Source of the DNA: Owenia fusiformis
Lineage: Eukaryota > Annelida > Polychaeta > Sabellida > Oweniidae
Length of the DNA stretch: 64,000 nt
Assembly: GCA_903813345.2 (NCBI GenBank)
Contig: CAIIXF020000004.1
Coordinates: 23,065,985 to 23,129,984, forward strand
Direction: 5' to 3'
Every line of letters starts with the position of its first letter. Position 1 is the first letter of the stretch. A program made the translations under genes and the position numbers. The notes under the pieces are model-generated. The model had not been told where the DNA came from. It made no database searches and was given only the letters and a program-made list of their open reading frames with translations. Positions 2,572 to 64,000 of this stretch are shown piece by piece.

Positions 2572-5500
2572 AAGTTAAGATAAGATAAGATAATATTTAT
2601 TTTACGTCGGTTATATTGTACAAAAACATTAGCGCAAGCGCTATTCTCCGACTAGTGTATAATAAAATCTATGGTAAAAAGTGTAACAAATAAAATACAT
2701 GCATACAATAATTTAACAGAGACATCTATAAGACATGAATAGAATAAAATTGATACATAGTATAGACTGGCTATATGACTGAGACATCTATTGACTAGTT
2801 TATAAAATTAAGGTGATAAGTTATTATTTGCACATTGCACATTTACAATCCTGACCCTCCCATTGGGAGATTAAACGTTTGAACTCTCCCAAGGAAATTG
2901 CCAATCTGCATTTATTGGGGAGGCTGTTCCAAATGAAAGCAGCATCCACTCTGAGAGAGTGTCTACCATAGCGAGAACTACGGTATGGAGGGACATTGAT
3001 TGTGTTGGTTGATCTTAAGGAGTATCTGTGAGTGTTAGTTTGAAATAAATCTGACAAATAAGATGGGCACGTGCCTTTAATGATTTTGTAGGTTTCAATT
3101 GCGATTTGTCGCATTCTACTGAGTGTCAGAGTAGGTACCTCAGATTTTACAAGTAGTTCTTCATAGCTAGACTTGTAATCATTATGAACAAATCTGAGAC
3201 ATCGCTTCTGTAACAATTCCATTTTGACTGAGTTAAGTTTACCACAGTGATGCCATATGGTTGGGCAATAATTGAAGCAGGACAGGATAAATGCCTTGAA
3301 GATTACCATACGGGTATTTAAATCCAGGTGTTTAGAGATTCTCTTAAAAGCGTTTATCTGTCTTGCTGCTTTGACACATATATCTTTAACATGTAAATTA
3401 AAATTAAGTTGATTATCAATGGTAATACCTAGAATGTTAACATTATCTTCAGTTTTGATAGTTTTACCACTAAAAATCAGTTCAGAGGGTGCATCGGCAC
3501 CAGTTTTACAAGGCTTTAAAAACATACATTGAAACTTTTCTGGGTTTGCTACCATTTTGTTCGCGTTAAACCAAGTGACAGCTTGTTCTGATGCATCGAT
3601 CAGTTTAGCCTTCACTTGGTCCATGGATTCACCCGCAAAACATATAGTATTATCGTCAGCATAGTTATAGAGACTAATATTGCAATCTTGCATAGATAAA
3701 AATATGTCATTCATAAATATGTTGAATATAAGGGGTCCTAGAATACTGCCCTGAGGTATTCCATGTAAGATACGTTTCCATTGACTTGTGTTTTGACCAA
3801 TTTTGACTCTTTGCCTTCTGTTTGAGAGGTAACTGAGTAGAAGACTAGATGATGACTCAGATAGCCCGTAGGCCTTAAGTTTACATATTAATAGCTCATG
3901 AGGCAAAGAATCAAACGCTTTACTCAGGTCCATTAGGACCGTACCAACATACTTGTTATTATCGAGAGCTATTTTCCAGTCCTCAACCATTCTGGTCAGC
4001 AGAGTTTGACAGCTATAACCTTTTCTAAAAGCACTAAGAAAAGGAGAGAAAATATTGTTGAAAAAAACATTAAGTTGATCTGACATAATACCTTCATAAA
4101 TCTTAGAGAAGCTGACCAGAATGCTTACTGGGCGATAGTTATCCTTGATTAAGTTGTCCTTTTTTTTGTACACAGGAGACACTTCGGCCTCCTTAAGGTT
4201 ATCTGGAAAAATTGAAGTTTTCAGACATTTATTTATTACAATTGTGAGAGATGGCGCTAATATGTCTGAAATAGATTTGATAATTTTTGGTGGAATATTG
4301 TCCACACCTGTAGCCTTCTTAACATTTAGACTGTTTAGTTTTGATAGCACTACTTCAGGTGTAGTAGGTTGGAAATTAAAAATTTGATCAGGTTGTGTGC
4401 TTGCAGCAATATGAAGAAGACTAGGATGATCTGGCAAAATACCAGATTGGTCAATATTCAAATTATCACAAATATTAATGTAAAGGTCATTAAAAATATC
4501 ACAAACTTTAGTTGGGTCAGATATAAGTTTGTCATTTTCCAGTAATGTGATGGTGTTCTGTCCCTTAGATTTATTAGACAGAAATGGTTTGATGGTGGGC
4601 CAAAAGTTTTTGTTTTTTGGCCCATTGACACACTTGTCCAGGAAATAATCGTTCATGGCTGAACGTCGTAGAGAGGTGCAGGTGTTTCGTTGTTTCCTAA
4701 AACGTTCCCAGTTTGCAGGAGTCCTGTGTTTGTAGTAGGCAGAGCGTAGTTTGGCCTTTAGCTTAATAGCTTTGCGGTAGGTAGAGTTCATGATAGGCAC
4801 TTGCTGTTTTTTGGGCCGTTTTGTTTTCAAAGGGGCATTATCATCTATTACAGTAGATAAAAGATGACTATAGGCCCACTGAGCGTCATTGGGGTCATCA
4901 AAAATCTCACAAACATGAAAGGGAATGTGTGAGACTTCATCCTTGAAAGCATCAGGATTAAAATCCTTGTATGATCGATAAAGTATTTTGGATGGGCGAG
5001 GTGAAGTAAAGTGCCCACGTTTCACGGTATAAATGCAGTGGTGAAAGTCACTAAGACCTGTTTCAAAAGAACCAGATTTCATAAAGTCATTCTGGTTTGT
5101 AGTGAGGATGACATCAACGAGTGATGGAGTCTCTTTAAAACAGGTAGGATTACTCACGAGATTGTGCAGATCAAAATTGTCGCAGAGATCTATGAGGGGG
5201 CGTCCCTTGGTTAAGGGAAACAAAGCATCTAAATTTAGATCACCCATTAAGATAATATTAGTCGTTTTAAGCATTGATCTATCTAAACTGGTTTGTAGAT
5301 TGTCAATAAAAGTGTCTACATTTGCCGAGGGGGGGGGGGGGTTGTAGCAGGCATATAGATGATATTTCTCCTTGGCAAGAGACAGCTCAATAGCTATCGT
5401 TTCAAGATTGTGTGGCTGGAGATCGGGTAGTTGTCGGCTGGGGATGTCGGCACGGATATAACACATGAGGCCACCACCATGACGATTCCTATCCTTCCTA

Positions 5501-6411
5501 AATAACTGAAATCCTTTTACATTAAATTGAGCATTGTGAAAGGATGGATCCAACTTAGTTTCGCCAATTATGAGAATGTCTGCTAGACCTTCGGTGAGAA
5601 GAAATTTTATTTCCTCAAATTTATTTTGAACACTGTTTATATTTATATGAGCAAATATTAGGTTTTTGCGACATTTACTCCTCACGTGTCGCAGCTCACT
5701 AAAAATATCACTGGCTTCACTTAACTCACTTGAATTGCAAGAAGAAGTTGATCCCGAAATATCCAACTCGGTGGGACCAGTGGAGTTGAAGAACGAGTCA
5801 GAGAAGTGAGGTAGTTGGCACTGCCAGCAGTACCAATCAATAGAAGATGCTCCGAGATTGCGATACTCCCGGAGAGGCATGTTGAGGCATTTACGATGGA
5901 ACCATATGTCGCAACTGTCACAAGCTAGAGCATTTTGATTATTCCGGACCTCGTTAGTACAAAGTCCACAAGGGAATTGGACCTGTGTTGGGCCTGGTTG
6001 AATGTTTATATCCCCTGATAGAAGAAGTAGTATAATGGCAGCGACCATGCAAAAGTTCAGGTTCCTCCGTGAAAGTTTTTTCTTCCCGCATTTTGTAAAT
6101 AATTCATTTCCGGTGTAGAAATTTGAGTAAAGAATCCATAGTTTGAGCCATTTGTTGATGCATATTACGTCAGATATGGCATCCGGAAGATAGATAGAGG
6201 TGCTATAGTCCATAAAAACACTGTTTAGTTGACTAAAATCCTTGGTTTCTAGTTTCAAAACCAATAAAACAGATAAAAATATAGCACAATGAAAAAACGC
6301 GCCCATTTTCCATGACACGCCACGAAAAATCGAATTAAAATGAAATTTTTCGATCCAAGAAGAAAATTTGCACAAAAATTATTAACTCCGCTTGACATAA
6401 TCTTTGTCACT
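2572..6411 (-). mobile_element. Full-length PHD-finger non-LTR retrotransposon (CR1/L2-like)
   Basis: This is a minus-strand LINE. Its 3' end lies at the left, with a short (TTATC)n-type tail at about 2575-2595, as in CR1/L2-group elements that end in microsatellites rather than polyA. A 7-bp repeat CTATCGT at 2565-2571 and 6412-6418 is the likely target duplication. One uninterrupted ORF spans 2824-6375. The intact frame suggests a recent insertion. Confidence 0.8.
2824..6375 (-). CDS. LINE polyprotein: PHD finger, endonuclease, reverse transcriptase
   Basis: An open frame of 1183 residues. In order: a hydrophobic stretch near residues 110-119; a 2A-like motif SGDINIQPGP (about 120-129); a C4HC3 PHD finger (about 136-187, Cys-x2-Cys ... 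His-x2-Cys ... Cys-x2-Cys); an EEP/AP-type endonuclease (from about 238, with GETKLD, GDLNLD near 379 and SDFHH near 441); and a reverse transcriptase with 'YRPVSIL', 'SKAFDSLPH', 'GIPQGSILGPL' and the catalytic YADD near residue 904. No separate ORF1 is seen. The G-run at 5328-5341 encodes a proline run without breaking the frame. All catalytic motifs are present, so it may still be active. It acts in cis on its own RNA by target-primed reverse transcription (family knowledge). Confidence 0.92.
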   Translation of the reverse strand: MCKFSSWIEKFHFNSIFRGVSWKMGAFFHCAIFLSVLLVLKLETKDFSQLNSVFMDYSTSIYLPDAISDVICINKWLKLWILYSNFYTGNELFTKCGKKKLSRRNLNFCMVAAIILLLLSGDINIQPGPTQVQFPCGLCTNEVRNNQNALACDSCDIWFHRKCLNMPLREYRNLGASSIDWYCWQCQLPHFSDSFFNSTGPTELDISGSTSSCNSSELSEASDIFSELRHVRSKCRKNLIFAHININSVQNKFEEIKFLLTEGLADILIIGETKLDPSFHNAQFNVKGFQLFRKDRNRHGGGLMCYIRADIPSRQLPDLQPHNLETIAIELSLAKEKYHLYACYNPPPPSANVDTFIDNLQTSLDRSMLKTTNIILMGDLNLDALFPLTKGRPLIDLCDNFDLHNLVSNPTCFKETPSLVDVILTTNQNDFMKSGSFETGLSDFHHCIYTVKRGHFTSPRPSKILYRSYKDFNPDAFKDEVSHIPFHVCEIFDDPNDAQWAYSHLLSTVIDDNAPLKTKRPKKQQVPIMNSTYRKAIKLKAKLRSAYYKHRTPANWERFRKQRNTCTSLRRSAMNDYFLDKCVNGPKNKNFWPTIKPFLSNKSKGQNTITLLENDKLISDPTKVCDIFNDLYINICDNLNIDQSGILPDHPSLLHIAASTQPDQIFNFQPTTPEVVLSKLNSLNVKKATGVDNIPPKIIKSISDILAPSLTIVINKCLKTSIFPDNLKEAEVSPVYKKKDNLIKDNYRPVSILVSFSKIYEGIMSDQLNVFFNNIFSPFLSAFRKGYSCQTLLTRMVEDWKIALDNNKYVGTVLMDLSKAFDSLPHELLICKLKAYGLSESSSSLLLSYLSNRRQRVKIGQNTSQWKRILHGIPQGSILGPLIFNIFMNDIFLSMQDCNISLYNYADDNTICFAGESMDQVKAKLIDASEQAVTWFNANKMVANPEKFQCMFLKPCKTGADAPSELIFSGKTIKTEDNVNILGITIDNQLNFNLHVKDICVKAARQINAFKRISKHLDLNTRMVIFKAFILSCFNYCPTIWHHCGKLNSVKMELLQKRCLRFVHNDYKSSYEELLVKSEVPTLTLSRMRQIAIETYKIIKGTCPSYLSDLFQTNTHRYSLRSTNTINVPPYRSSRYGRHSLRVDAAFIWNSLPNKCRLAISLGEFKRLISQWEGQDCKCAMCK

Positions 6412-10800: not shown

Positions 10801-13800
10801 GGTAGATGATATGATAGGTTCTGGATAAATGAGAAGTGACAATTTGGATTTGAAAGTACTTAAGTTGTCTATCTCTTGGAGTTGTTGGGGTAGTTTGTTC
10901 CATTCTGAGATAGCTGTAAAAATGCATGTTTTCTTTAATATCACAGATCTTTTAGCGGGCAAGACAAATTCAGTTGGATTTCTCAAATAGAGAGGAGGTT
11001 GTTGTCTCTTATATTTATCAAATATGTTTTGAACGTATGAAGGAACTTTCCGATTTTGGATATTGAACATGAGGATCAGTCGATGAAACTTCCTCCTCGT
11101 CTCTAGTTTAGGCCAATTTAGAATATTGAGCACCTTTTCAGAAGATGACCCATGTATAGTTCCACTACAAATCAGAGCTGCCTTGTAGTAGAGCTGGTCA
11201 ATGCGTTTTAATTTGGAAATATCTGCACATCCATAGAGAATGTCGCAGAAATCAAAATGTGGTAAGATAAAAGATTTGAACATAAGATTTAGATGGTTTC
11301 CACTAAGTTCTTTACTTAACGCTTTAAGTGGATTTAAAAGCTTATAAATTTTCTTTGCAAGCTGGGTAATGTGGAGATTGAAAGATAATGTGGAGTCAAA
11401 GATAAAGCCAAGGTATTTATATGAAACACACCTTGGTATAGGTTCCGTTTCTCAATTTTAGGTCAGGGGTTATTATTTCATTCTTTTTTGGACTACTAAA
11501 CGTCAAATCATCACTTTTAGAGGGTTTGAATTTTAATTGCCATTCATCAGACCAATTGTTTATAGAATTTAGATCAGATTGGAGGGTGTTTATACAATCA
11601 GGCATATTATCATGGCTGAAGGGCTGATAAAGAGAAGTGTCATCTGCATACAGAAAACATTTGCTTAAAATATTATCAGGTAAATCGTTCATGTAAACTA
11701 AAAATAGCAAAGGTCCTAAGATGGACCCCTGGGGAACCCCTGAATTGATATAGTCGCTGGCTGACCATGAAGATTCATGTCCATCAATAAGCACTCTTAC
11801 TTTTCGATTGGTAAGATAAGATTCAATAAGTAGCATACTATTTGTACCAAAACCATGTGCACGTAACTTCTTAAGTAGTAGCTTATGGGGTAAAGTATCG
11901 AAGGCAGCCGATATATCAAGAAAAATTGCACGAACATCATTACCATTATCCATATTAGAAGATAGAAAAATCAAGAATACTAAAAAGTTGGTGTTGTGTG
12001 CTGTGACATGGGAGAAATCCACTTTGAAAATTAAATAAAAGGTTGTTTGATAGCAAGTGGTCAAACATCCTTTTAAAAATAACTCTCTCAGCTACCGTTG
12101 AAAGGCAGCTTAATGAAGTTATTGGACGGTAATTTGAGACAAGATTTTTGTCACTTTTCATGGCATGGGATAATATTCCCTAGTTAGTGTCATATTAGAT
12201 TAGACAGTCCATTTTGAATATGACCATTTTCAATTTTTGGAGTTTTCGTAACAAAATCTTGTCTACATAGTCTTGTTTACCCGTTCTCAGATTTTGAAAT
12301 CTTAGATAGGATAGGGAATGAATGAATTGAGACTCGAATTTTTACAGAGGATACAATTGACTGGCACGATTTAATTCGGCTTGGGATTGCTCTAATTAAC
12401 TTATATTTTTCATAAAGAAGTGCACATTACCATAATGTATATATCGAGCTTGTCCTGCTATAAGTAACCACAAAAATTGTTTCAATTAAACAATATATTT
12501 CACCACCCGCAAAATTGTTCTTAGTTGGTAATGTGCAAATCACCTAAAATCTTTTAAAACAATACATTAGAATAAAAATAACACATGTAATCATTATTAA
12601 TTATTTCTCTAGTTTCCATGGGTCAATGATCATTTTTCAACTAGCCGAGATAAAAACCGAGGGACTTAGATATATTGATATTTTTACATATATGTTGGTT
12701 TGCAATTAAACATTGTTTATATGGCACACGATGGGTTTGTTTAATATATTCCATAGAAATTATCATCCTTTCACCACTGGTGATGCCTAACACAGCTGAG
12801 TAAATGACAAAGGGCCTTTCATTGACATCATTTAGTATCATTCATTTATTCTATATTTATCAAAACCATTGTAAAATTGCATGATGAATAAACCGCATCT
12901 GCATGTTTTTTTTCACATGAACTATTTATCCTATGTTTTTGCATTTTACCTGGTTTGAACATTCTCTACTTATGAAAAAAATGGTTCTCACTGATAAAAA
13001 AGAGTGATTGTGAATGTCAAAAGATGTCAAAAATGACCACTTCTAGCGCACAAAAATAACATCACAGGTTTGAGCATTTGGTAGTTCACATCTAATATCA
13101 AGGAACTTAAGAAGCAGATGTTCAATGTATTATTTAGCAATGCAGTATACATTAGGGAGTTTAAGCTTGCAATGTTCTTGACAACTTAAACGTGAACGGA
13201 CAACATTTAAGCAATGCATTTGTATGGGCGATTGACCATACGTATAGGTTGGCGTTTCAATTTTATATGCAAGCTTAAACTCTTAAGCTAAATAGCATCT
13301 GTACAACGTATAAATTTTCACATACGATCACGTCCGGGGGTTTTACAAACAAATCCTAGCTCATAAATAAAGCAAATTACAAAATAACTGTCGGTTCCAC
13401 ACAAAGTGTTCCTGTTAGTCGCAAAGAAATTTTCTGCTGACTCATCAGCATAATCGGTATCAAAACCAGAACAGCAATTTCGCTTCTTTTGTTTAGATCC
13501 TCTACTAGGAAGTAGCGAAGCACACGCAGCCAAGTCTTGCTTGGAAATCATTCAACTAAGACGTCCTGTTCCTCCTTCCGGGTTGTACTGGATTGCACTA
13601 ACGCCTGACTTTGCTACCAGGCTCTACTGCGACATGGTAACTGATGGAGGGGGATTTACACTTGTGTGGACTTTCACCTTAACCGATTATAATAACTTTG
13701 CGAGTAAAGGCAATGATGTCACTCCTAGGCCAAACTGGGATATCAATATCTTTATGTCACCTATCTATACTCCTTTTGTCAAGGTCCCCGTCTCAACTAC

Positions 13801-14194
13801 CCCACCTGAATCAGAAGATGATTTGGGTGCCTTGAATTTCAAGTATTGGAAGCAAATAGGAAATGCGGATTTTGTTGTCAAATCAAACCTTGCCAATTGG
13901 ATAGCATGTACAGGCAAAGGGAGTATTTTGGAAGAAGATAAAGAGGGTCCTATCACGTGTAAAGTTGTAAAGTTTATTTCAACTGAACACCCAGAATGTA
14001 AAGATGACACCCCTACATACGTGAACTGGAGTCCAATATGTGGCTTAATTCTACAGAGAGATGGCAAAGATTATATTAACTTTGACATTGCCAGTTCTGC
14101 GTGTATTCCTAAATTTGACCCATGTGCAGAAGGCTCGGGTAAACGATATGTGAAAAATGTTGATATCCCACGTGGCAATGTCTACATACGTTGA
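7830..14194 (+). CDS. Gene C: secreted coiled-coil fibrinogen-like protein (4 exons)
   Basis: Predicted exons are 7830-7884, 8744-8938, 9184-9243 and 13497-14194. All junctions have GT/AG and all introns are phase 1. The joined length is 1008 nt, giving 335 residues. Exon 1 is a signal peptide (MDLQYGVYFSLITLALILS). Exon 2 is a charged coiled coil preceded by a Cys-rich start. Exon 3 is a short basic linker ending Cys-Thr-Cys. Exon 4 is the fibrinogen-like domain. The layout parallels gene G, but the sequence is more diverged and has two extra cysteines in the last domain. AATAAA at 14214-14219 follows the stop closely. Intron 1 holds a fold-back element; intron 3 holds a MITE, a LINE relic and another MITE. 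Extra exons in the 4.2-kb intron 3 cannot be excluded. Confidence 0.75.
8030..8536. repeat. Fold-back element with ~125-bp inverted arms (intron 1 of gene C)
   Basis: The left arm (about 8030-8155) and right arm (about 8400-8536) are inverted copies: 'ggtatggcaagtgatttt', 'gagtactttctg' and 'taaatacagt' recur in reverse. No ORF of note. The spacer (8200-8345) resembles 14540-14780 in inverse orientation, so this is a dispersed family. Confidence 0.8.
9808..10117. mobile_element. MITE with 22-bp inverted repeats TTTAGCCCCGTTTACACTG
   Basis: A 310-bp element in intron 3 of gene C. It starts TTTAGCCCCGTTTACACTG and ends with the exact inverse. The inside is rich in 'GACCGG/GGACTT' words on both arms. 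Superfamily not assigned: the ends recall PIF/Harbinger or hAT MITEs, but the target duplication is not clear. Confidence 0.75.
10486..12180 (-). mobile_element. Degenerate LINE fragment (jockey/CR1-like reverse transcriptase) in intron 3 of gene C
   Basis: A 5'-truncated minus-strand copy. Three pieces in shifted frames give the reverse transcriptase: 'NYRPITSLSCLSTVAE' (12161-11955), then 'AAFDTLPHKLL', 'SGVPQGSILGPLLF' and catalytic YADD (12064-11417), then the C-terminal part with a Cys-x-Cys...His...Cys-like motif (11283-10486). Frameshifts near 11950 and 11400 make it inactive. It is related to the relic at 32880-35960 but not to the PHD LINE. Confidence 0.85.
12181..13154. other. Intron 3 sequence, nothing recognised
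   Basis: AT-rich intronic DNA of gene C between the LINE relic and the second MITE. No exon with matching phase-1 signals was noticed. Confidence 0.45.
13155..13282 (-). mobile_element. MITE copy 2, terminal inverted repeat GAGTTTAAGC
   Basis: Reverse-complement copy of the element at 1079-1208 with about 17-bp terminal inverted repeats. It sits just before the last exon of gene C and is flanked by TTA on both sides (TTA|GGGAG...CTC|TTA). Confidence 0.8.
13497..14194 (+). CDS. Gene C exon 4: fibrinogen-like domain
   Basis: The exon opens after 'cttttgtttag' in phase 1 and ends at TGA 14194. It carries 'PPSGLYWIAL', 'LYCDMVTDGGGFTLVW' and eight cysteines. An in-frame ATG at 13541 exists, but the upstream open frame and the splice acceptor show it is internal. 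The C-terminal 'PRGNVYIR' equals the end of genes A and G. Confidence 0.85.
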
Positions 14195-24966: not shown

Positions 24967-26821
24967 ATGGTGATCCAGTGGCTTATATTTTGTCTTGGCT
25001 GTATCTTGGTTCAGGCAGCGCAGAAGAAATCAGGTGGACAAGGCATCATCAACATCAAAGCCGATCTTCTGAATCTTAAGAACGCAGTCAATACTCTGGT
25101 TAAAACCCAAACAGCGTTGAAAGACTACCTGCAAGAAGAATTAGCCAGCATACGAGACGAGGTATCAAATCTACGGGACGATGTGGCCAATTTAAGGGAT
25201 GGTGAATCCAACGTTAGAGACAATGTTCTTGAGATCAAAGAAGATATGATTGAACTTAAGAAACAGTTCGATGATACTGATGTCAGCAAAGGGTCTTCAC
25301 AAGGTACATTTGATTTATTTGATTTGATTATTTGTTCTCATAAAACATCACAACAATTTTAGAAGGTATGGCCATCGTTAGTTACCGATAATCTTAGTAT
25401 GAACCTAAGATGTCCTATACATTTCAAAACTGTATTGTCACATCCGTATTTGCACATTGTTTATTGTTCTCTATGAAACTTGCTTTAATTTCTGAAGTAG
25501 AAAAATATATTTTATATACGACATAACTATGAGTACTTGTTTAGCGCCATGGAAGAAAATAATATCTCGTAGAAAAATGAGAAAAATCATTTACAAAATT
25601 GTTAGTTAGAAGAACTTATTGAACGGCATGCTCGAATAATGACTAAATGGAGTGTTTATCATTGTGATTAGTTCATCTGCATATGTATGAGCGACATCAA
25701 ATTGTTTTATTTGAGGTTTGTGCAATGCGACATTGGTGGCAGCGGAACTGAAACAAGATTTCAATGGTATAAATGCACAAATGAACAACGTGTTGGATAA
25801 ATGTGAGGCAGTAGCACGAAGCAATTGCACAACAGGTAAAGTTGTAATCACCCGTCTTAAAAAGAAAATATATTAATCTTATATCCATACTGGGTCTTAT
25901 GAGAACTAACAGCCTCGCGCCATGGGCCTCTGCTATTATTCTTCCTAATGCCCAATACTCATGGCTTGATACAACATATACAGCTCTCATATCTTTTCAT
26001 GCATATATTCTTTTTAAAAAGACTCAGAAATATTCCATTTAGTGATACGCACGACACAAAAATGCAACATATACAAATTAATTAAAATAAACAAAGTAAA
26101 TCGGGTAAAATATCATACGATTGTTAGATTTAATAAAAATCATACCTAATCTCTTTCAGCGAAGTATGGAGAAGTTTCAGTTTCACCAGGAGTAACTTGC
26201 TTGGATATTCAGAAAAGGCGTTTACCAGAAATCTTGCCATCGGGGGTGTATTGGGTGACACTTGGTAATCCAGGCGTCCAACAGCTGTATTGTGACATGG
26301 TGACAGATGGTGGGGGTTGGACATTAGTATGGACATACACGTTTACAGATTATGCAAATTTTGATAGTTTTACCAATGCGGTTACTCCTCACCCATCCTG
26401 GATTGATATAGGATACACTACAGCAAATACTCCAGTTTCTACAAGCCCTCCTCTATCTGAGACGCAGCTTGGAGCACTGGAGTTTGCGAAGTGGGGCCGA
26501 ATCGGAAGTGAATTTATGATGAAATCAAATATCAACCAATGGGTTGCGTGTACTCCAGCCACTGGGAGCTTTGTTAATTTGAGAAGTGGATCATTGGATT
26601 GCAGAATGGTGAAAGTCGTCGCCAGTGAATGCACCACTGTAGTCCCTAACAGAATTCAGATCCATAATGCAAGAGGCCCAGCACTTTATGCGACGTCTGA
26701 TTACTTTTTCTTTGACACAAATAAACAATCAAACTGGCCAACACATGATCCTTGCGGAAGCGGCGCTTTAAATCATATTAATGATGTAGTTAACCCAAGT
26801 GGCAGCATATTTCTTCGCTGA
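24967..26821 (+). CDS. Gene G: secreted coiled-coil fibrinogen-like protein (3 exons)
   Basis: Predicted exons are 24967-25303, 25716-25835 and 26160-26821, with GT/AG borders and phase-1 introns. The joined length is 1119 nt, giving 372 residues. Exon 1 encodes a signal peptide (MVIQWLIFCLGCILVQAA) and a long coiled coil with heptad-like 'LRDDVANLRD' repeats. Exon 2 continues the helix (KQDFNGINAQMNNVLDKCE) and ends with two cysteines that could link chains. Exon 3 is the fibrinogen-like domain. Expected to be secreted as a coiled-coil oligomer with lectin-like or matrix heads (inference from architecture). This is the complete member of the family in this window. Confidence 0.85.
26160..26821 (+). 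CDS. Gene G exon 3: fibrinogen-like domain
   Basis: 662 nt after 'ctctttcag', phase 1. It carries 'LPSGVYWVTL', 'LYCDMVTDGGGWTLVW', six cysteines and 'NPSGSIFLR' at the end. It is highly similar to the gene A exon in protein and in exact length. Confidence 0.9.
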
Positions 26822-28125: not shown

Positions 28126-28365
28126 TTATTCGACCAATAACTCAAAATTCACACTGCCCATTTTATCAGTTGTGTCGTGGTAGATGTTGTTCGCCCAGGC
28201 CATACATCTGACTTGGATAACCACGCCATATGCTGGCCGCAAAAACTGTGCCATAACTAGAGGAGATTTATATCCGGGCTGGTTTCTGTAGGGGAAAAAC
28301 TCGAATGGCATACCAGCAGCTGGCCAGAATTTTACGGGTCCCATGTTTTCGTCATCAGCTGGGCT
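28126..28365 (-). CDS. Gene D exon 7: Na+/K+-ATPase beta C-terminal part
   Basis: Phase 0 after 'ctattttcag'. It has the family hallmarks '[19 protein letters not shown]' and the final Ig-like strand segment '[12 protein letters not shown]', which holds the sixth cysteine. Ends TAA at 28126. This is the part of the beta subunit that packs over the alpha-subunit extracellular loops. Confidence 0.88.
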   Translation of the reverse strand, partial: SPADDENMGPVKFWPAAGMPFEFFPYRNQPGYKSPLVMAQFLRPAYGVVIQVRCMAWANNIYHDTTDKMGSVNFELLVE

Positions 28366-31300
28366 CTGAAAATAGTAGTGACCATTGAATTAAACATTAA
28401 ACTCCTCCCATCTCATCTCAACATATCACCGGAGTTGAATTTGATGAAAACAAAATAGGACATTATACAACTATTAATCCTTTTTAAGAATGCTGGTCAA
28501 AAGTTAATTAACTTTTAAACTTGGTTCTTTTAACTTGTGTACACATCTTAAGAAAATTATACAAGAGATTTTCGTCAACAAGATATCTTAACTCGTTGCA
28601 TAAAAGCAAGACGGCCACTCGCAGTAGAAATATGTTACTGGGCATATCTAAAATCAATCCCAAATAATTTTAATAGGGGTTTTAAAAAACAATCAATTTG
28701 AGCTTAAATCTTTCTGAAGATTTCGATTGCATCTAAAAACAATGAAAGAAATCATCTGTGTTTCTATACCTCTCCGTGGCATGTGATCATTACATCTGTA
28801 TTCCTATATTTACCCGGATCTCCAGTTACATTGGGGTTGATGAGGGGTTCTGGTACCCAGTCATAGATCTAAAAATAAAACAATCCCATAATCTTTAGTC
28901 ATATTTATTAGTACTTTTATGCAGATTGGTTTATGAAATTGTTTGTTGTGTTTTGTTTTACTCTTCTCTGATACCATGGTCGCATTTGTTCGGATCTTCA
29001 ACATCGACTCCCGACCGATGAATATTTTGTTCAAGACTGAATGCAATTTTGAACAAAATACTAATTGGCCGGGTGCCGTAACTGAAAATCGGAGCAAATA
29101 TAGCATTACTAGTGTTGCCCTTACTCGACATGATTTTCCTGTTTATTTATGATGATTTCCTATCATTGGATTAACGCACTACTAACTAATTTTTGGTCCA
29201 CAGCGAGGTTCTCTACGCAGTTAAAACATTTATAACTGATCTTACACCAGGATTACATATAAATTTAGTTTGATAATTTCAGTAAGTTTTTAAGAACATC
29301 TCCTCCTTAATGAAAATTTCTTAAATTACGATTTAAAACCAAATAGGATTTCTTAATAAAAAGCAACTCGAGAAAGGCATTACGAGGAAAAACATTTCTA
29401 GTGATTTACCTTGTTTAGCATAAGGAGTACACATGGTCTTGCCTCTTCATATCCAAAATCCCTTTGCCAAACGCATTCTGGACCAAGATTGCTCACATCA
29501 AATCTACAAACCTTCTCAGAATCAGTTCTTGCACCATAGGAACAATCAATGAAGTTTTCGCGAACCTGATTTTCATTCTCATATTCTAAAAGATTAATAT
29601 TATTTTATTTATGCATACATTTTTCACTGATTTTCCACGCATTTAAGCCAGATTACAAACGAATAAACGCAGGGAGCACACGCGTCTCGAACTCGCAACC
29701 TCGTGGTTACGGCCAATATTTTTAACAATAGATTTGAGAAATGAGTTTTGAAAGAGGTGGACAAATGGGAATTGTCTTTTTAGCAATGCTTCAAAATTGT
29801 TAAAATAGGTCGACAAGTTTGTACATCCAAATCATGCTTATTTTAAAGGGGCAATAAGGCTTGTAGAGAGAAAATAGGAAAATTTTAACTTTTTCTGAGC
29901 TATCAAGGCAACAGTTGGCTTAACATCTTCTTCGACATACCTATTTTCTTAAAACGTATGGATAAACTATCAATTTTGTCATTAAAGAGTGTAAATTCAC
30001 TTCAAAGCTTGAAAAAGTGGACGTCCACTTTTATATTTTTAAGATCCACCATGTTTCAAGAGGAATATAAGCTGAAATAATAATTATCTAGGGGGTTTCT
30101 TTGTAGAAAATAAAAATAGATGTTAGTCTTGATGAAATATCCAAACTTAAATATATTTTGACACTGGTCCATGATCGTTGAATGGCCCCCTCTGCACTAC
30201 TTGTTGCATCTTTAAGTTATTTACGCACTTCTGTAACCATTTTGATTTATTCATTCATCTGAATTAACATCTTAAATTTGTATTTTTTGGTGCAATATTT
30301 AAGTTTTCGAAATATTTAAAGCAAAATTTTAGGATTTGTTGATTTTTCCTGCGTCATTTTCAGGATGTTATGAGTTTATTGAGGAGTTTAGGGAACACAT
30401 AACTATATAAGCGGAGGATCTTTTGTTACTGAGGTGATGCGCCTCAGTGATTCATTAAATGTGGATGCCACGATGTTCTACACCATTTTCTTCAAGAATT
30501 TAAGCTACATGTAGAGGAGTGTTTAACTTACGTTCTAAGAATGAATTAATATGATCTGTGTAAGGCTTATAGCTGGATGGTCTCCCCTGCTCAAATTTGA
30601 TCAAAGTGGATTCAGGGTTAGGCATTGGTCTGAAGTTCATACCTAAAACGTAATAAAACTTCAATTTGTTTAAAAAATCGTCAGAATTTAAATTATAACC
30701 GCACCTAAATTTAAGTGAACAAAGCTAAATATGTAAATACAATTGTTAATATATTAGTAGTCAAGATTTAAAAAAAAATTAACATGAATGTATGGATTCT
30801 ATTAGTTCTTAAATCAATAGCACTGAATGCTTTTAACAGTAGTAATATATGTTTCGTTCATAAAATTAGTTAGGAATTTATCTGACTCGGTAACTATTGC
30901 CTAGGTCACATAGGCGCCGGGCGCCGGCCGATGAGTAGTCATCGGCCGATGTCTAAATCGCCCGGGCGCCGGTGAATTTTCACCGATGTCTTGATCTAAT
31001 CATGAGTATGGTCACATTAGTACAGGCACCGTACGGCGCCCGCAATCAATTGAATCTGAAAGATATCGCATGGGTATCGCAAGGCTATCTTCCGATTGCC
31101 ATACGGCACCCGCCAGGACATCGGTCAATCTACAGGCCTCTAGATTTACACTAAATCCCCGTATGACCCAGTAAGACTGTTCCACATGGCGTGAATGCAA
31201 CATTTGAAAACGAAATACTTTGACATTCAGAAGGTTTTTAAAATAAATGATTTGTAATGGTATATGCATGACTGAATATACGCATAAAAATGTATCACTC

Positions 31301-34300
31301 TATTCAATGTGTATGACAGACATACACGATTAATGTCAATATATGCTAAGAATGACTAGATCAACTCGCCCACCAAACCATTCAATTGCGTGTCATTGTT
31401 TTACAATTAGCTTAACCGTTCCATTTGTGGTTTATAAAAATGTCTGTTTAGTAATTATAATTCCTTACCTCATTATTTTTAAAACCTTTATATCACTTTA
31501 TAAGTAATCATTATTACGATGCCCGGGCTCGCCGGCCGACTTTGTACAAAATACTCATCGGCCGGGCGCCGTAGTGAAAATCGGAGCCTATGTGACCAAG
31601 GCATAAGATAGCTGCAAACTTTGTTACCGCTTGAACAACTTACTGCTTAGCAACGGCTCTGGTGTCGTCGAAGGAACTGCTGTTATCGGAATACCAAATC
31701 CATTTTAAAATAAAAATGAAACAAAATATTAGGCAATGAATTTCCAAGCTCACGTAATGTTATGATATGCTTTTGAGTAATTATATGCTTAAATATTTAT
31801 TTTCCGTATATACAGTTCAATGTATTGCTTTATTTCTCCAATAATTCTAGCGATTATTCTAAATGATTATATGGATGTACATTTATCTGCTTGTCATGTC
31901 GAGGATCCACAAACTAGTAAATCATTTTGGAACCGTTGAGCTGCATATATTGTTGTACCGATTTTTCACGAAATTTTATTTGGGAATTTCAGACACTCGC
32001 TGTTTGAAACATCCAATGAAATTTTTTATCTAATTTTTTTTATCTAATCGTCATGTTAAACCTGCATAGACTTTTTTGTCATGCTCCTGATCATACTATT
32101 ATTACTTAATTTTCAATATCAACCTGATACGTGATGGATTTCCAAAGTCCCTTGGAAGTATTCTTGATCTGTTTGAAATGCTGAGAATTGTTGAACTTCA
32201 ACTTGATCATTCGGATTTATTATAGAAATCATTATACAAATGTTTGACGAAGTTTGATTCGGCTAAGTCCATTGATATGCTCAAAATACAACTCATTCAT
32301 TTTATGTAACTGCACAAGAATAAATTTGTACTTACGACATGGTGACGTGTTACATGCTTCGCTCCTGGTTTCTGTCGATGTACCAGACACACAATGTGTA
32401 TATTTCCTAGTTCGTACATTGAGACGTGTCCCAGTTCCACACGACTTAGAACATTCGCCAATTTGCCACTCCGACCACTTCCTCCATTGACAAACTGAAA
32501 TAAAAAACGCTACATCTACAAGATCCACAAAAACGACCCAAGGAAGACTATTACTGACGTTAACATACTCAGTGGGTCAATGGGTATTTAAAAAAGGTAG
32601 ATAAAAAAGGTTATTCCAAGGTCAAATGTCAATATCAAAGTATTTGGCATTTTAAGACCCGTGACTCTTGACGACCCTTGATTACTAAAGCATGTTTTTT
32701 TTATACATACATTTATTCCTTTAGTAATCAATAGAAGACATGCAATTGATTGCCAAAGTTTTATAAAAAAAACATTAGCGGCAATTTTAGACAATATGAA
32801 TAGGAATACATTAAAATTAAAATTTTATCAAAGTAATGTTTTCACTCATATAAGAAACTATAACCCCATGGGCCAGGGATGTGTTAACACATGCATGCAA
32901 AAATTAGCCAAACCGATCAATTTGGCTCAGACTTTGATTAACAAAATGACTCATAAGTTCTATTAATTTTTCATTTAATGAATTATCTAAATCTTCATCA
33001 CCATACAAAAGAAACTGAATTTTGTCAACTGTGTTCAACTTCTGAACCAAAGGATGAAGATCTGAAGTTCGCAGTCCTGCAAATAAAGTTTCACGCTCGT
33101 TTACAAGCAGAGGACATTTTAAGATAAAATGAGAAGGTGTTTGTGGTAATCCACATTTACAAAAGGGATCACTAACACTGGTGAAATTATGAGCATATAG
33201 CTGTGATTTTAAAAGAAGACCCACTCTGAGTTTGTTAAAAGCAGATTCAACATATCTAGGCATTTCGTTTACCATTTTGGTAGTGGGTAGCATGGAGACA
33301 GGGCTCTTGTAATCTCTTACTAATCTTTAGAAGCGTGATATCGGTTGACCTCTTCTCGTGTCAAGGTGTAAATTGTTCCATATTCTTATTCCATTCAAAA
33401 TAGTCGACCTCCGGAATGAGTTGCTAGCTTTTGTAGGAATTAAGTAATGTCTTGTATCTCTCAGTTGCCTAGCCTGAGTATTTTCATAGGTTTGAAGTAA
33501 TTCACAAATGAAAGGTGGATAAGAATTGTACCTACATTTAAACATAAACATTTTATAATACTCATCTCTTCTAGTTGATAGGGATTTCCAGTTTAAGTAA
33601 CTTAGAACAGAAGCAGTGTTTGACCCATGTATAACACCAGAAACCAAACATGCTGCTCTGTAGTGCAATCTATCTAAACACTGAAGTTTGAAATTTAAAG
33701 CTTTACCGTAAATTAGATCACAGTTACCAAAATGTGGCATAATGAAAGCATTGTAAATTGTTTCCAAGTGTTTACTCTTAAGAAGTTTGCTAAGTTTCTT
33801 TAAAGGTCTCATTAGAGAAATTACTCTAGTGATAAGTTGATCAATATGGTCATTAAAGTTCAAATGTTGATCCAGAATTAGCCCCAAGTGCTTATGACTA
33901 TTGCATCTTGGTATCAGTTCATCTCCTAGATATAAAGAGGGAGGTTCAATAAGTAAGTTTCTAGTTCCCGTGAAAATCAAATCGGCGCTTTTTGTGCTTT
34001 AAAATTCACCTTCCAGGTATAAGCCCATAAAGCAAGATCATCTAAGGCATTTTGAATGGGTTGGTGTACATGCATGTTAATAAAATTCTCACTTTTTTAT
34101 AGGAGTTATAGACTGAAGTGTCATCTGCAAAAATAAAGGTTTTTGAATGCAAATTATCAGGAAGATCATTCACATATAATAGAAAAAGCAGGGGTCCTAA
34201 TACTGATCCTTGAGGAACTCCAGCATTTATGACTAAATTGTATGCAAATTATTCGGGTTGTTTGTATTGTCGTTAGAATTTTCATTGGACCAATTCGAAT

Positions 34301-36612
34301 AGCTATTATTCACTTTAACTTTAACAATTTTATTAAAAAGCTAAGTTAGCAGTTGGTATTGCTAGAGATTTAGCACAGACTTTTAACATTTTGTTAGATA
34401 TATTGTCAGGCCCATCTGCTTTAGAAATGTCAAGATCTTTTAAAATTTTAAATACTTCGTCAGGAGTAGTTTTGATTTCCTGAAGAGTATGATGAGTTCT
34501 GGGTCTAAATATTGGAGTGTAATTCTCTGGAATAGTGACAATGTTCTTGCTTACAAAGTATTTCATTAAAACATTTGCTTTATCAGAGCTGGTGGCTGCT
34601 GATAAGTTGGAATTGGGATCAAATAAAACCGGAATTGATGTAGCTTGATTTTTTCCAAGTAAGTCGCGAATCAAAGACCAGTAGTCAACAGAATGTTTGG
34701 AGGTGTTCTCAATTTTTTCCGAATTTTAAATTCATATTCAGATTTTGCTTCCAAAATCAATTTGTTCACTATCTTACTTTGAATTTTAAATTGCGTATGA
34801 TAGGTCAAAATGTTAGTAGATTTGTATTTATGGTGAAGTTTGTTTCTTTTATAAATCTCCTTTTTGATGTTATTGGAAAACCAAGGTTGATCATCATACC
34901 TGGTTGAAATAGTCTTATGAGATACATTTGTTTTAATTATATCTAGAAAAGTTCTAACAAAGAGCTCTGTTAACATTGTTGGTCAAAATAAAATCTCAGT
35001 TAGTTTCTGAAATTTTTTGATTCAGTAAGTCAGAGTCTTCTGTTTTGAAATGCCATAAGGTTTTCTTAATTGAGGGTTCTCTTGGAATTTTTACCCTAAC
35101 TTTGCTGACAATTGTACAGTGATCTGAGTTTCCAATTGGCGGGTCAACAGTAACAGATAGAAGATGATCAGAGTCAGTTATTAAAAGGTCAATGCATGAT
35201 TAAGAAACATTTGTAATCCGTGTAGGTTCATTTACCAACTGTTGTAGTCCTAGGTCAAATAGAATATTATTTAATTACAAGCCAGCTAAATTATCAATAT
35301 CGTTGTCGTACCAAAGTTTATTTCTGGCATTAAAGTCTCAATTTAATATTACACCATCTGTTGGTAGCAAAAGCACTTGAGAAATATTTAACTTTAAAGA
35401 ATCTAAGTAAAGTCTAGTTGCATCTGCTGACATTGATGGTGAGCGGTAGAAAAAAACAAACATAAAAACTTTATGTTGAGCCTTAACCTCTACCCAACAA
35501 TTTGCTAAATCGTGGGACATAAATGTATCACATACTTTAGCCTCAATACTATCATGTGACCATAACAAGAGACCTCTTCCCTCATTTGAAGCATACTTAG
35601 GTTCACCACATCCTCTTATGAAAAAATCTTTTGAGTTCAAATCTTCATCAGTGACATTGCCTGATTCACAAAGTGCTATCAGATGAAAGTCACCATTTAA
35701 TGCAAAATCTTACAAAAATGCTAACCTTGTCAGAGAATCTGCCTTCACACTATTTATATTTGTGAATAATATTTTGAAATCATCAACTGGGCAAGTATGT
35801 ATGTGACAGGTCATTATATAGTAAAAGGTCACGTGAATATCCAGGGCACTTTTTAAGGCACTCCGGGGCTGCGTTGACACTTGGCGGTATTTGGTCTTGG
35901 ACTTGTTAAAATGTTTATATCTAAGCATTTGGCGTGTTAAGGGCATTGGGGCTGCTTTGTGACCCTGGCCTCTGTAAGTCCAACCTTTTAAGCATAAAAC
36001 TATATATATACTGGGTGGTTACCACGATAGTATACCATTTATTTATTATTCGATAGTTAATTTAAACTTACTGTCTGTCCTTTTCCCTGGTCTACCCCTT
36101 TTTCCACGTCGTCCTGGTGGACCAGGTGGTCCTTGGACTGAAACGCCAGCTTCTCCTCTATCACCCTTTTCACCATCTGCACCAGGGAGACCATTCCGTC
36201 CAATGTCACCCTTATCTCCCTTCGGCCCCTTTGGACCATTTGCACCTGTCACACCGGGTTCCCCTTTAACCCCCCTCCTTCTATGAATACCACGCTGCCC
36301 ACGAACTCCCTTACATTTATCTTCACATTTCTCTTTCAACTGTGCAACTAGGGTTTTCAATTCGATGTCATTTTGTTTCAGCACAGCGATTTCCCTATCT
36401 TGGTCTCCTATGCGTTGTTGCTGTTCGTTAACCGTGACTGAAAGTGTTTCGACAGTTAATGTAAGTTGCGTGAAATCATCATCGGTTAGTGTCGCTCCAA
36501 CTTTAACTGTATAGAATTCTGTTGCGCTCAGTAGAGTTAGCCCAACTGCAATTAGAAAATATAGCATGATTCTTGTATTGCGATACGTTAATGAGCTAGT
36601 GTCGTCACTCAA
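28126..36612 (-). CDS. Gene D: collagen-TSP1-Na+/K+-ATPase beta ectodomain chimera (7 exons, predicted)
   Basis: Exons in transcript order are 36612-36072, 32494-32336, 31679-31644, 30642-30532, 29585-29410, 28868-28770 and 28365-28126. The total is 1362 nt, an exact multiple of three, giving 453 residues with no internal stop and GT/AG at every border. The first three exons are paralogous to gene E: hydrophobic N-terminus, coiled coil, Gly-X-Y repeat, TSP1 and a short linker. The last four encode the extracellular part of a Na+/K+-ATPase beta subunit with all six disulfide cysteines. The cytoplasmic/transmembrane exon of a normal beta gene is not seen between 30.66 and 36.6 kb. Alternative: two neighbouring genes, the beta gene having lost its 5' exons. 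Intron 1 carries a dead LINE. Confidence 0.6.
28770..28868 (-). CDS. Gene D exon 6: Na+/K+-ATPase beta segment
   Basis: 99 nt, phase 0 to 0. It encodes '[19 protein letters not shown]' and 'ITCHGE', with an N-glycosylation site (Asn-Val-Thr) and the fifth conserved cysteine. Beta subunits of other animals carry the same 'I..W.PEP' and 'C.GE' words. Confidence 0.88.
28972..29105. mobile_element. Palindromic MITE 'CCGGCCGAT' copy 2 (intron of gene D)
   Basis: The fold-back arms 'tggtcgcatttgttcggat' and 'tcggagcaaatat', with inner 'gaatattttgttcaa' as in copy 1. It is more diverged. Confidence 0.65.
29410..29585 (-). CDS. Gene D exon 5: Na+/K+-ATPase beta disulfide core
   Basis: 176 nt. It contains 'FIDCSYGAR', '[13 protein letters not shown]' and '[16 protein letters not shown]', the strongest beta-subunit signature in the locus. 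It carries cysteines 1 to 4 of the three conserved disulfides. Confidence 0.92.
30532..30642 (-). CDS. Gene D exon 4: first ectodomain exon of Na+/K+-ATPase beta
   Basis: 111 nt, phase 1 to 1. It encodes '[16 protein letters not shown]' and '[13 protein letters not shown]', matching the stretch right after the transmembrane helix in beta subunits. The split first codon becomes Ser when joined to the linker exon at 31644. A typical beta gene would have Gly there. Confidence 0.8.
30897..31015. mobile_element. Palindromic MITE 'CCGGCCGAT' copy 3
   Basis: The GC-rich fold-back 'gcgccggccgatga', 'tcatcggccgatg' and 'gggcgccgg', with flanking 'ggtcaca'. Borders approximate. Confidence 0.6.
31519..31612. 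mobile_element. Palindromic MITE 'CCGGCCGAT' copy 4
   Basis: A short copy between 'atgcccggg' and 'gtgaccaaggcat', with inner 'gccggccgac' and 'catcggccgggcgcc'. Confidence 0.65.
31644..31679 (-). CDS. Gene D exon 3: short Pro/Thr linker
   Basis: 36 nt, phase 1 to 1 ([12 protein letters not shown]). Its preceding intron ('ttatttt..aaat..atttggt.ttccga') is clearly homologous to the intron before the linker exon of gene E at 50285, so the exon belongs to the CILP-like gene plan. The acceptor is NAGNAG, allowing a one-residue alternative. Confidence 0.65.
32336..32494 (-). CDS. Gene D exon 2: thrombospondin type 1 domain
   Basis: 159 nt, phase 1 to 1. It encodes the canonical TSP1 pattern: 'WRKWSEW' for the Trp ladder, '[10 protein letters not shown]' and six cysteines ending 'CNTSPC'. 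TSP1 domains bind glycosaminoglycans or matrix partners and act outside the cell. Confidence 0.92.
32880..35960 (-). mobile_element. Degenerate LINE with endonuclease and reverse transcriptase, in intron 1 of gene D
   Basis: A minus-strand relic. Endonuclease pieces lie at 35946-35338 ('[10 protein letters not shown]', '[10 protein letters not shown]'), a pre-RT region at 34976-34333, an RT core at about 34230-34080 ('[17 protein letters not shown]', FADD), and the C-terminal part at 33980-32904, which ends with '[17 protein letters not shown]'. Several frameshifts are present. The segment with 'YRPIS...AFD' is deleted between 34333 and 34230. It is the same broad clade as 10486-12180, and inactive. 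Confidence 0.87.
36072..36612 (-). CDS. Gene D exon 1: signal/anchor, coiled coil, collagen-like repeat
   Basis: Residues 1-15 are polar and 16-33 are hydrophobic ([18 protein letters not shown]). It could be a type II anchor if the first Met is used, or a signal peptide if translation starts at Met16. Residues 45-98 form a coiled coil followed by a Cys-rich knot (KCEDKC). Residues 102-177 are Gly-X-Y triplets with a short interruption at 156-160. Donor 'gacagaca|gtaagt', phase 1. It is paralogous to gene E exon 1. Confidence 0.88.
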
Positions 36613-61069: not shown

Positions 61070-63267
61070 TTAACCGTAACGTTTCTTACATCTTATAGTT
61101 AGCCCTACACCGATAACAGGTTTGGGTGAACTACACGTTTGGCCTTGTTGGAAATCAGCACATAGACACCTTGCTTTGGCAGTAGATTTAGCCGTTTGAA
61201 CATCGTCATTATCATCTACGTATATTCCAAAATCTGTTCCACCAATGATAGAGGCAGAAGGTGGTTTAAATGAAACTAGCGCTGCATCGTTATAAGGTGT
61301 GGTTGTCTGGTATTGTTGAAGACTGGAAGCAACAGACTCTACTGTACAGTCTGTGCCTTCTACAAGCACCTCGACGATAGTTTGGTCTAAAGCTTCAAGT
61401 ATGGTGCCACGTCCTTTGAATTCAATACATGCTGTTTGATCTATGGTTGTGTCTTCACGGATACCGAACATCTCCCCCAAGGTTGCAAGGTGAGTACCTC
61501 CTCTACTTACAACTCTTACAGATGATTCCTCCGATGTACTATCAACGACTACACGAACCTTAATATACCAGACCCAATACGTGGACGTGAGTCTTGGAAA
61601 CCATGCTAAAGGCCAAGAGTTTTGTACTGAAGGGCAATCCCATTGCACACGCTCACATACAGAATACTCAAATAGGGAAGCTGTATTTTGATAGAAACTA
61701 TAATGTGGGGCCGTTTCATCTGGGTTTACACAATTAGTACGAGACAAAAAACTGGAACTGCTATGATATATCGGGCCATTTGAAGTGAGTGGGGAAACTG
61801 TTGTCTCAATGACTCTCCCTCGACTTTCAGTTGGACTTAGTTGATCTACTATTATATTTACACCAGACACATTTGAACTTGATCCGCCTAGGCTTGATGC
61901 AGCACTCAATGCACCCGATGGACTGTCCATGAATAGGTATCCGTGAAACTGGGAATCACCACAAACTGTCAATATGCAATCTTCATGCGATCGTAAGCCG
62001 CGATTTCTACTCATACCTCCAGTGACAATACGTCCTGCGCTGCCACCTTGCCAAGATGTTTGATCCAATGAAATTACAGTAGGTTCTAGAGAGCTGTCCC
62101 AGGGTAATGGTGATGCTGAACTCGAGTCACTATATGTTTTTACTTTAATGAAACAGTAATTTAACTGATTGTCATCAAAGTTGAACCAGTAACGATCTGT
62201 TATGACTGCGTCACCAACAAAAAAGTCTGTGGTGTCCCGAGCCTGTGATCTCTTTTTTCTATTTGAAACTCGTCTCAAATTCCCTTCATATTCCCATCTC
62301 GCAGAGGAGGGATTAAAAGACCAAAGCTTTACATTCGTTGCGTTCTGCAGTCCTGCACCTATGACGTCAGCACTTATTGCCATGCCTACTTCCCCTTTGA
62401 TGCCAAGTTCATTTCCGGCCGTATCACTAAATGCCAAATGGAACATTCCGAATGTTTGCAATGACCCAATATCACCATCGTCATTGATGAATGTTAGATC
62501 TCCAACCATGGCATTAAGGTCTTCATTATTTCGAGGGTCTATAAAGTTTATAGCTGTTTGAACAGGACCGCTGTATTTCGTACCATCAGCTTTGTAAAAT
62601 GACTCACCAGGAATGATGACGTCAGCAAATGAACTCCCAGACGTTGAGTTAGCCAAGGAGAGAGTTGTCGTTTCTGATGATGGAATTTCAACAACAGTAG
62701 ATTTTCTCAAAAGCGGAATGTCTCTATAGAAATTACCGGAATAGTCTTTGGGTATGTTAAACACCTTAGATGTCTCAATGAAGTTATTTTTGATGAATTC
62801 TTCCTTAAAAGTGACCACGATTCTTGTCATATCAAGAGGGACGGGAAAACTAAACTCACCATTAAAACTTGTTGTTGCAATCTCTTCATCAAATAAGTAT
62901 ACCTTCCCAAATCTAAGAGGAGAACTTGTGTCAACTATATCATGAGCATATCCGCTAAAAGTGACCTTACGAACGCTAGTTATGATATTACCAGTAACAT
63001 TTGCCTGATTACACACAACACAACCACACTCCAATGTTACAACAATATCTAAAGAATAGTCAGCACATGAAATCGTTCTCATTGTTTGGCGTGTAGGGCC
63101 ACAGCAATATTCGGATTCAGTATTTGACTCTGGTCGCTGAATACACTCGTTTCTACGGCAACGGCCAACTTCATACTGCAGCGGATTGTCACCAGTCTGT
63201 GGACAGTCCTTTGGTAACGCTTTGGGATGTGATAGAGGGGATGTGTCACAGAAACTCCCTCCATCAT
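61070..63267 (-). CDS. Gene F: CILP-like C-terminal exon (partial gene)
   Basis: A large last exon, acceptor 'tgccattttag' and phase 1 as in gene E, open to TAA at 61070 (about 732 residues). It has the Cys-rich entry, the CILP core, the basic cleavage-like site 'VSNRKKRSQ' and the C-terminal region with 'ESRGRVIETTV', 'APHYSFYQ' and 'GIREDTTIDQTACIEFKG'. Intact where gene E is shifted. Upstream Ig, TSP1 and collagen exons would lie beyond 64000. The in-frame ATG at 63334 lies in the intron and is not the true start. Predicted secreted matrix protein. Confidence 0.9.
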
Positions 63268-64000
63268 CTAAAATGGCACAGACATTTACTTGATATGATG
63301 TATCATGTCCAAAACATAAACCGCCTTTTGACAAGTATTCTCTCAGAAATTGATTATCTAAATTTATTGTACATATAAAGTCAAATAAATTAGCAAGCTT
63401 TTAAAAAGTGAGATGAATCGCTTACATCGCTTATGTGAGAATTGACAAATTCAAAAATGCATTTCGAATTTAGAGCAACGAGACATTCAAGGCGTTTCTG
63501 CCTGCGATCAGGTGATAGCACCTTTCAATCAGTTTTCGTCTCAAAAACAATTTGTCTCTGTGTCAGGTTATTGATTTGTTATACTGTTTTTTGTTTCCAA
63601 AATACGTTTTGTCAAAAAGTTTGAGTTTTGAGGGATAGAGAATGCCTTTAAATGATAAACAATAAGGCTACTATTGACAAGTATTTCAAGGTGAAAGGTT
63701 TGGGTTGAAGATGAATTGTAAAGGAATTATGGACACGACTTACAGTTATGTTAGTGTAAATAGACCTATTAAAGGGCATGATAATCAATATTACCTTAAA
63801 AGGTCATTGTCGAAGGTCAAGGTCAAAATTTAGGTCATTTTCCTCATTTTCGCATTAACCACACTCCTGTTCAATATTTTGTTTTTAAAATTAGTATTAA
63901 AAGTTCATGTTATCATAATATCGCGAACATACTAGGGTCAACACGTGTCTGTTTCTCATTTCATTTTCAGAGCAGAAATTTTACGCCAGGGGGCATGATT
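63268..64000 (-). other. Intron of gene F; no exon seen
   Basis: In gene E the Ig exons lie 150 bp upstream of the equivalent acceptor, but nothing comparable occurs here to the end of the window. The intron is longer or the Ig exon is lost. Confidence 0.5.

Follow-up and report, generated by a model that had tools for sequence, protein, structure and literature searches.

A probable chimeric gene joining a Na,K-ATPase beta ectodomain to a coil-collagen-TSP1 stalk in the annelid Owenia fusiformis

Beta subunits are membrane-anchored partners of P-type pumps and are normally built as type II membrane proteins. In a stretch of 64,000 nt of the Owenia fusiformis genome (assembly GCA_903813345.2, contig CAIIXF020000004.1, here C4, positions 23,065,985 to 23,129,984 of the forward strand; the whole stretch is called the window), exons for a beta ectodomain follow, on the same strand, exons for a collagen/TSP1 stalk. 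The locus therefore raises the question whether both halves belong to one gene, and where each of them came from. A first-pass annotation had proposed that the beta ectodomain was moved onto the stalk, and this is largely supported by the analysis reported here: a parental beta gene has been found, a membrane exon has not, the phase-1 border is shared with the parent, and the copied exons bear the mark of purifying selection. The proposed origin holds for the beta ectodomain and has to be revised for exons 2 and 3.

Seven minus-strand exons (window 36567-28126, Table 1) have AG/GT borders and compatible phases, which read 0, 1, 1, 1, 1, 0, 0 at the exon starts, and their spliced frame is open. 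The coding length has been determined as 1317 nt including the stop, corresponding to 438 amino acids without interruption, in which a signal-like start, a coil, collagen, TSP1, a 12-residue linker and the Na,K-ATPase beta ectodomain follow one another. The set of seven exons, its borders and its phases thus stand as annotated, but the annotated length of 1362 nt (454 codons) does not, as 45 in-frame nt 5' of the ATG at 36567 had been counted in. By eye, the short hydrophobic N-terminus is signal-peptide-like, and a heptad-rich segment closes with a cysteine pair. The Gly-X-Y triplets are arranged in three runs of 3, 15 and 6, and the Pfam Collagen model matches the fusion protein at 1e-9. The TSP_1 model gives no match to the whole protein at E <= 0.01, whereas the exon scanned alone reaches 23.3 bits against a cut-off of 21.6. 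The linker residues are Pro/Thr; exon 3 comprises just 36 nt, its coding part is not conserved, and it is optional by phase, since a join of exon 2 to exon 4 would be equally in phase. The first intron of the fusion gene holds broken retroelement-like frames at window 32904-35709 (minus strand), and a longer frame of the same kind lies at 2824-6378; both have been named by eye.

Table 1. Features of the fusion gene and of its seam intron, in window positions and in the order of reading.
Feature	Position	Strand	Basis or remark
Exon 1: signal-peptide-like start, coiled coil with cysteine pair, 24 Gly-X-Y triplets; ends in phase 1	36072..36567	-	
Exon 2: TSP1 domain, phase 1-1	32336..32494	-	Pfam TSP_1 23.3 bits, exon alone
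Exon 3: 12-codon linker, phase 1-1	31644..31679	-	acceptor region homologous to a probable gene E exon
Young repeated DNA element in the seam intron	30896..31604	.	copies compared; borders set by hand
Copied piece of the parental transmembrane-b1 intron, 5' of exon 4	30643..30887	-	alignment to parental intron
Exon 4: beta ectodomain b1, entered in phase 1	30532..30642	-	in the parent directly after the transmembrane exon
Exon 5: beta ectodomain b2, four cysteines	29410..29585	-	
Exon 6: beta ectodomain b3, one cysteine, NVT sequon (parent: NIT)	28770..28868	-	
Exon 7: beta ectodomain b4, one cysteine, stop codon	28126..28365	-	3' flank parent-homologous to about 28045

The identity of the head is clear. 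The Pfam Na_K-ATPase model matches the fusion protein at 5.9e-44 and 150.7 bits (cut-off 23.3) over profile positions 76-284 of 284, and among solved structures the ectodomain is matched best by a beta2 subunit (8k1l chain B, 1.6e-40, residues 111-334 of 336 aligned). All six cysteines (6/6) align with those of the parental beta gene, which confirms the earlier reading of four beta exons carrying the complete set. Whole-genome searches have covered 498 Mb in 525 contigs, a scale at which weak matches can escape. The beta-family search (E <= 10) has returned 11 rows from 10 scored candidates, which fall at two places, the window and C4:22.160-22.178 Mb. A complete beta gene, the separate subunit for which the first-pass annotation had advised a search, is present at C4 22.160-22.171 Mb, about 0.92 Mb off and on the same contig as the window. 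This place carries a cytoplasmic exon, a transmembrane exon and then two successive ectodomain cassettes, p1 and p2. The window ectodomain is 75% identical in amino acids to p1 and 50% identical to p2, and exon by exon it has the lengths of p1 (111, 176, 99 and 240 nt, with the stop). Judged by identity and exon structure, it is a diverged copy of the parental exons b1-b4.

The border at which the copy was taken can be approximated from both sides. The parental transmembrane exon ends with CCA G before gt, and b1 begins with GT ATG after ag, in phase 1; b1 of the window is entered in the same phase and within the same codon, as the postulated phase-1 join would have it. Non-coding homology to the parent runs from the 3' flank (about 28045) through the introns, two of which align poorly (48-49%), to about 30887, some 245 nt 5' of b1. 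As the parental transmembrane-b1 intron is about 8.7 kb long and the homology starts inside it, the copied block has left the transmembrane exon behind. Within C4:22158001-22183000 (L001-L003), the second parental cassette also starts in phase 1, and a membrane exon of its own has not been found there; the two-cassette gene is possibly subject to mutually exclusive alternative splicing.

A transmembrane beta exon has not been found in the window, where the alignments are at chance level (best E 0.83). The parental first two exons, used as a genome query, have matched their own locus alone (2 rows, E <= 10, 3 candidates scored), and the sole beta cytoplasmic and transmembrane exons found genome-wide are those of the gene at C4:22.160 Mb. 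The earlier statement that this exon is missing from the locus thus extends to the genome outside the parental gene, and a copied beta transmembrane exon near the fusion gene is ruled out by the window and genome searches, with the reservation that weak genome matches can be missed. Had a membrane exon been copied along with the ectodomain, it should be about as similar to the parent and the searches should have picked it up, whereas a newly evolved one could escape. Since no membrane exon has been found, a promoter and a signal peptide would most simply be supplied by the stalk upstream.

The 5' half has relatives close by. Its coil exon, collagen triplets and TSP1 exon lie on one strand and in the order that characterizes the coil-collagen-TSP1 stalk family of this genome; by this likeness it is a member of the tandem CILP-like gene family, and the fusion gene is the lowest found member of a minus-strand array. 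Two other members of the family, gene E (about 51815-45904) and gene F (61070-63400 and beyond), contain CILP_5th, CILP and CILP_C domains (PF23708, PF23591, PF23599), none of which has been found in the fusion gene. Exon 1 is 65% identical to gene E in amino acids over the coil, and an 828-nt alignment at 68% takes in about 240 nt 5' of the ATG, so that promoter-proximal sequence was probably duplicated along. The TSP1 exon has two counterparts further upstream in the array, at C4:23157648 and C4:23181787, each behind a coil exon of its own; it is 81-83% identical to them in amino acids, versus 40% over 30 residues to the TSP1 of gene E. The exon at C4:23157648 is probably the start region of gene F, as no other coil exon has been found between it and the E-type TSP1 and CILP exons of F. 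The acceptor region of the linker exon matches a probable exon of gene E near 50285 (read by eye) at 77% over 61 nt; the coding letters differ, and the counterpart in gene E sits before the TSP1 exon, not after it. The derivation of all three 5' exons from gene E, as first annotated, is consequently retained for the stalk exon and for the acceptor region of the linker, and is given up for the TSP1 exon and the linker's coding part. In window 1-36 kb, queries with the CILP body have given chance-level matches at most, so that relics of such a body near the fusion gene have been discarded. We infer as the simplest ancestor a gene of the order stalk, TSP1, linker, TSP1, CILP, of which the fusion gene would keep the first three parts and in which the beta ectodomain would replace the rest.

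Both halves meet in a seam intron of about 1 kb that contains a repeat. The longest matches of this element elsewhere are 89-94% identical (114 match rows; 40 of 1758 candidates scored); both of its end sequences are present and recur in two other copies, and the ends are inverted. Homology to the parental intron, which stops at about 30887, ends about 8 nt from the element on the beta side, and homology ends about 39 nt from it on the linker side. With the element set aside, the junction is narrowed to these two short stretches. By appearance the element is far younger than the fusion, and we take it to have been inserted afterwards. That the repeat itself made the fusion is disfavoured, as its matches are 89-94% identical and both ends are present, while the halves stand at a dS of about 0.5 to their relatives; comparison with the two other copies has revealed no clear target-site duplication, and the rejection is accordingly partial.

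Whether the copied exons are functional has been approached through their divergence. Between the beta part and p1, three methods give a dN of 0.121-0.138 and a dS of 0.405-0.536, and thus a pairwise dN/dS of 0.25-0.31. Over 626 nt of beta exon the alignment has 0 indels, whereas 33 indel events occur in the 1374 aligned nt of intron, flank and UTR, a count that covers the flanking intron, three introns and the 3' flank and is rough for the two poorly aligned introns. Window copy and p1 differ at 52 of 208 amino acids, both branches together, without a stop. Neutral drift from p1 has been simulated with 2000 copies per branch length. At a branch of 0.10, 126 of the 2000 copies remain without a stop, with a mean of 41.8 amino-acid differences and a minimum of 20; the survivors fall to 25 at 0.20 (minimum 50 differences), 12 at 0.22 (minimum 56), and a single copy each at 0.27 (minimum 67) and 0.45 (minimum 103). 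Half of the measured dS amounts to 0.20-0.27, at which drift is improbable, whereas a branch of 0.10 would be compatible with drift by the amino-acid count. Taken on substitutions and indels, the copied beta exons show purifying selection, and together with the lack of indels this makes a dead fragment unlikely. Among 49 amino-acid differences in columns lettered in all three cassettes, 14 are assigned to the window copy and 6 to the parent, and 29 are unpolarised; the rate of change may thus be a little higher in the window copy than in its parent.

The stalk gives a more mixed picture. Aligned with gene E as protein, which places gaps in frame by construction, it has kept 21 of 22 aligned collagen glycines, whereas neutral copies simulated from E would keep 82% at a branch of 0.10, 68% at 0.20 and 66% at 0.22, and 358, 70 and 56 of 2000 copies, respectively, remain without a stop. 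Over the whole stalk, dN/dS lies at 0.43-0.51; the coil gives 0.66-1.08 and the TSP1 exon 0.46-0.59, and selection on these two parts is weak or not demonstrable. The dS to the nearest relatives is similar for the whole stalk exon (0.45-0.50) and the beta part (0.41-0.54), but lower for the coil alone (0.25-0.34) and the TSP1 exon (0.20-0.25), so that the two halves are not cleanly of one age.

On this sequence evidence, we consider it likely that the locus is a real chimeric gene, in which a beta ectodomain is joined to a coil-collagen-TSP1 stalk. In the proposed course of events, a block comprising the end of the transmembrane-b1 intron, exons b1-b4 and the start of the 3' UTR would have been duplicated from the Na,K-ATPase beta gene and would have landed in a tandem CILP-like (coil-collagen-TSP1) family member, where it was joined through a phase-1 intron and replaced or pre-empted the C-terminal TSP1 and the CILP body. 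The product would be secreted by its signal peptide and trimerised by coiled coil and collagen helix, followed by TSP1 and linker, and would present the Ig-like beta ectodomain as a head, three per molecule. Splicing across the seam is very probable; secretion, provided that splicing occurs, is expected with the same high confidence, and a collagen-type trimer is likely. As the most likely role, one in matrix or adhesion is tentatively suggested, in which the head would bind beta subunits at the cell surface, pump complexes or some other partner. Slightly less probable is that the secreted, collagen-trimerised ectodomain, with its three heads, acts in soluble form as a ligand or decoy in beta-beta adhesion or towards junctional pump complexes, in which case a part of a pump would have been recruited to the extracellular matrix.

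Three other readings have to be weighed against a chimeric gene. The beta exons could form a separate gene with an unrecognised new N-terminal exon, a signal anchor or signal peptide, placed between the TSP1 exon and b1 or nested upstream, while the stalk gene ends elsewhere. Introns long enough to conceal a short exon and the type II membrane form normal for beta subunits speak for such an arrangement; yet a co-duplicated transmembrane exon would be findable at this divergence and has not been found, and the copied block begins in the intron after the transmembrane exon, so that the N-terminal exon would have to be new. We regard this arrangement as unlikely. It is less probable again that the beta exons are an unexpressed duplicate beside a shortened CILP-like gene, the open frame being a leftover. 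The beta copy is a dispersed duplicate that came without a promoter or first exons, the polarised amino-acid changes are more numerous on the window branch than on the parental one (14 versus 6, with 29 of 49 unpolarised), and drift over a branch of 0.10 fits the amino-acid count; against this stand the dN/dS of 0.25-0.31, the absence of coding indels next to many in the introns, the absence of stops and the six retained cysteines.

Least probable of all is a misjoin of two loci in the linker-b1 intron, even though the multicopy repeat at the seam marks the kind of place prone to it. The window contains zero N, the homology on either side ends about 8 nt (beta) and about 39 nt (linker) from an element that has both of its end sequences, and a beta copy that is 25% diverged in protein from its parent would be a separate locus in any case. 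The chimeric gene thus remains the preferred reading.

The recipient family may have exchanged heads before. Ten other stalk loci have been taken, 10 kb each, and nine frames have been picked by eye from the eight scanned (L009 and L011 were left out). A PAN_1 domain in L010, where the TSP1 match is partial only, and a VWA domain in L013 exceed the Pfam cut-offs; each is encoded on the strand of the coil exon and downstream of it, and their exons are likely parts of the respective stalk genes. As PAN or vWA is thus found downstream in 2 of 10 related stalk loci, head swapping may be habitual in the family. A second TSP1-like frame is seen by eye in six loci (L004, L005, L006, L007, L008 and L012), with the TSP1 model above its cut-off in L012 only. 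In the stretch below L004 (L019), collagen-like pieces and one long frame are present, and queries for coil, TSP1, CILP and beta have matched nothing. The stalk family also has a group of coil and TSP1 exons on contig C10, at 34.73-34.79 Mb, which includes L013 with its vWA exon. Genome-wide, CILP_C has 28 matches (28 of 30 scored candidates), several of them grouped on C4 and C6, which amounts to a large CILP-like expansion. The window further holds three related plus-strand stretches (185-850, 13535-14191 and 26150-26818) with a GGGFTLVW/GGGWTLVW motif and 41-72% identity to the third; 26150-26818 is weakly fibrinogen-like (Pfam 17 bits, under the cut-off), and 13535-14191 has no Pfam match. 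Coil-type frames occur at window 2031 and 24928, and these stretches and frames perhaps represent another stalk-plus-head family.

If the chimera is true, a part of a pump would have become a free extracellular molecule, the beta fold apparently having been exported as a module via phase-1 intron recombination. The parent gene, the recipient family and the approximate breakpoints are all still readable on one contig. If transcribed, the gene would serve as a natural experiment on the function of a beta ectodomain separated from its pump, and as an example, open to dating, of exchanged heads in a family of matrix genes. That matrix genes swap heads is already known; the combination of beta, collagen and TSP1 has not been found described. 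In a literature search of partial coverage and few terms, no multi-domain extracellular protein with a beta ectodomain has come up, and the available part of PMC4224354 names no beta-ectodomain/collagen/TSP1 chimera.

Compared with the Na,K-ATPase beta subunit (Pfam PF00287), the fusion gene shares the complete ectodomain with its six cysteines and, relative to the subunit of this genome, the same ectodomain exon lengths and phases; the type II transmembrane segment and the cytoplasmic tail have no exons found in it, and collagen and TSP1 precede instead. With the CILP-like genes it has in common the stalk exon with its upstream flank and the linker acceptor region (gene E), and its TSP1 is of the type of the upstream array members; where genes E and F carry the CILP_5th, CILP and CILP_C body, it has a beta head. 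The product of a beta-subunit gene is likewise found outside the pump in placental BetaM (ATP1B4), a co-option termed a rare instance (PMC4778017). According to the accessible parts of these sources, the N-terminal domain of BetaM has been changed and the protein moved to the inner nuclear membrane, with no matrix-protein swap described, unlike in the fusion gene (PMC4778017, PMC9962273, PMC12300587). Closer in possible function are beta ectodomains engaged in adhesion, as in AMOG/beta2 (PMC12429690) and homotypic beta1 (PMC6770782), and Nervana 2, which is listed as a core septate-junction protein (PMC8006247). As far as the portions at hand of these reports go, the ectodomain can serve adhesion apart from ion transport; in all three it does so within membrane-anchored subunits, unlike in the fusion gene, where it would be carried by a collagen/TSP1 stalk.
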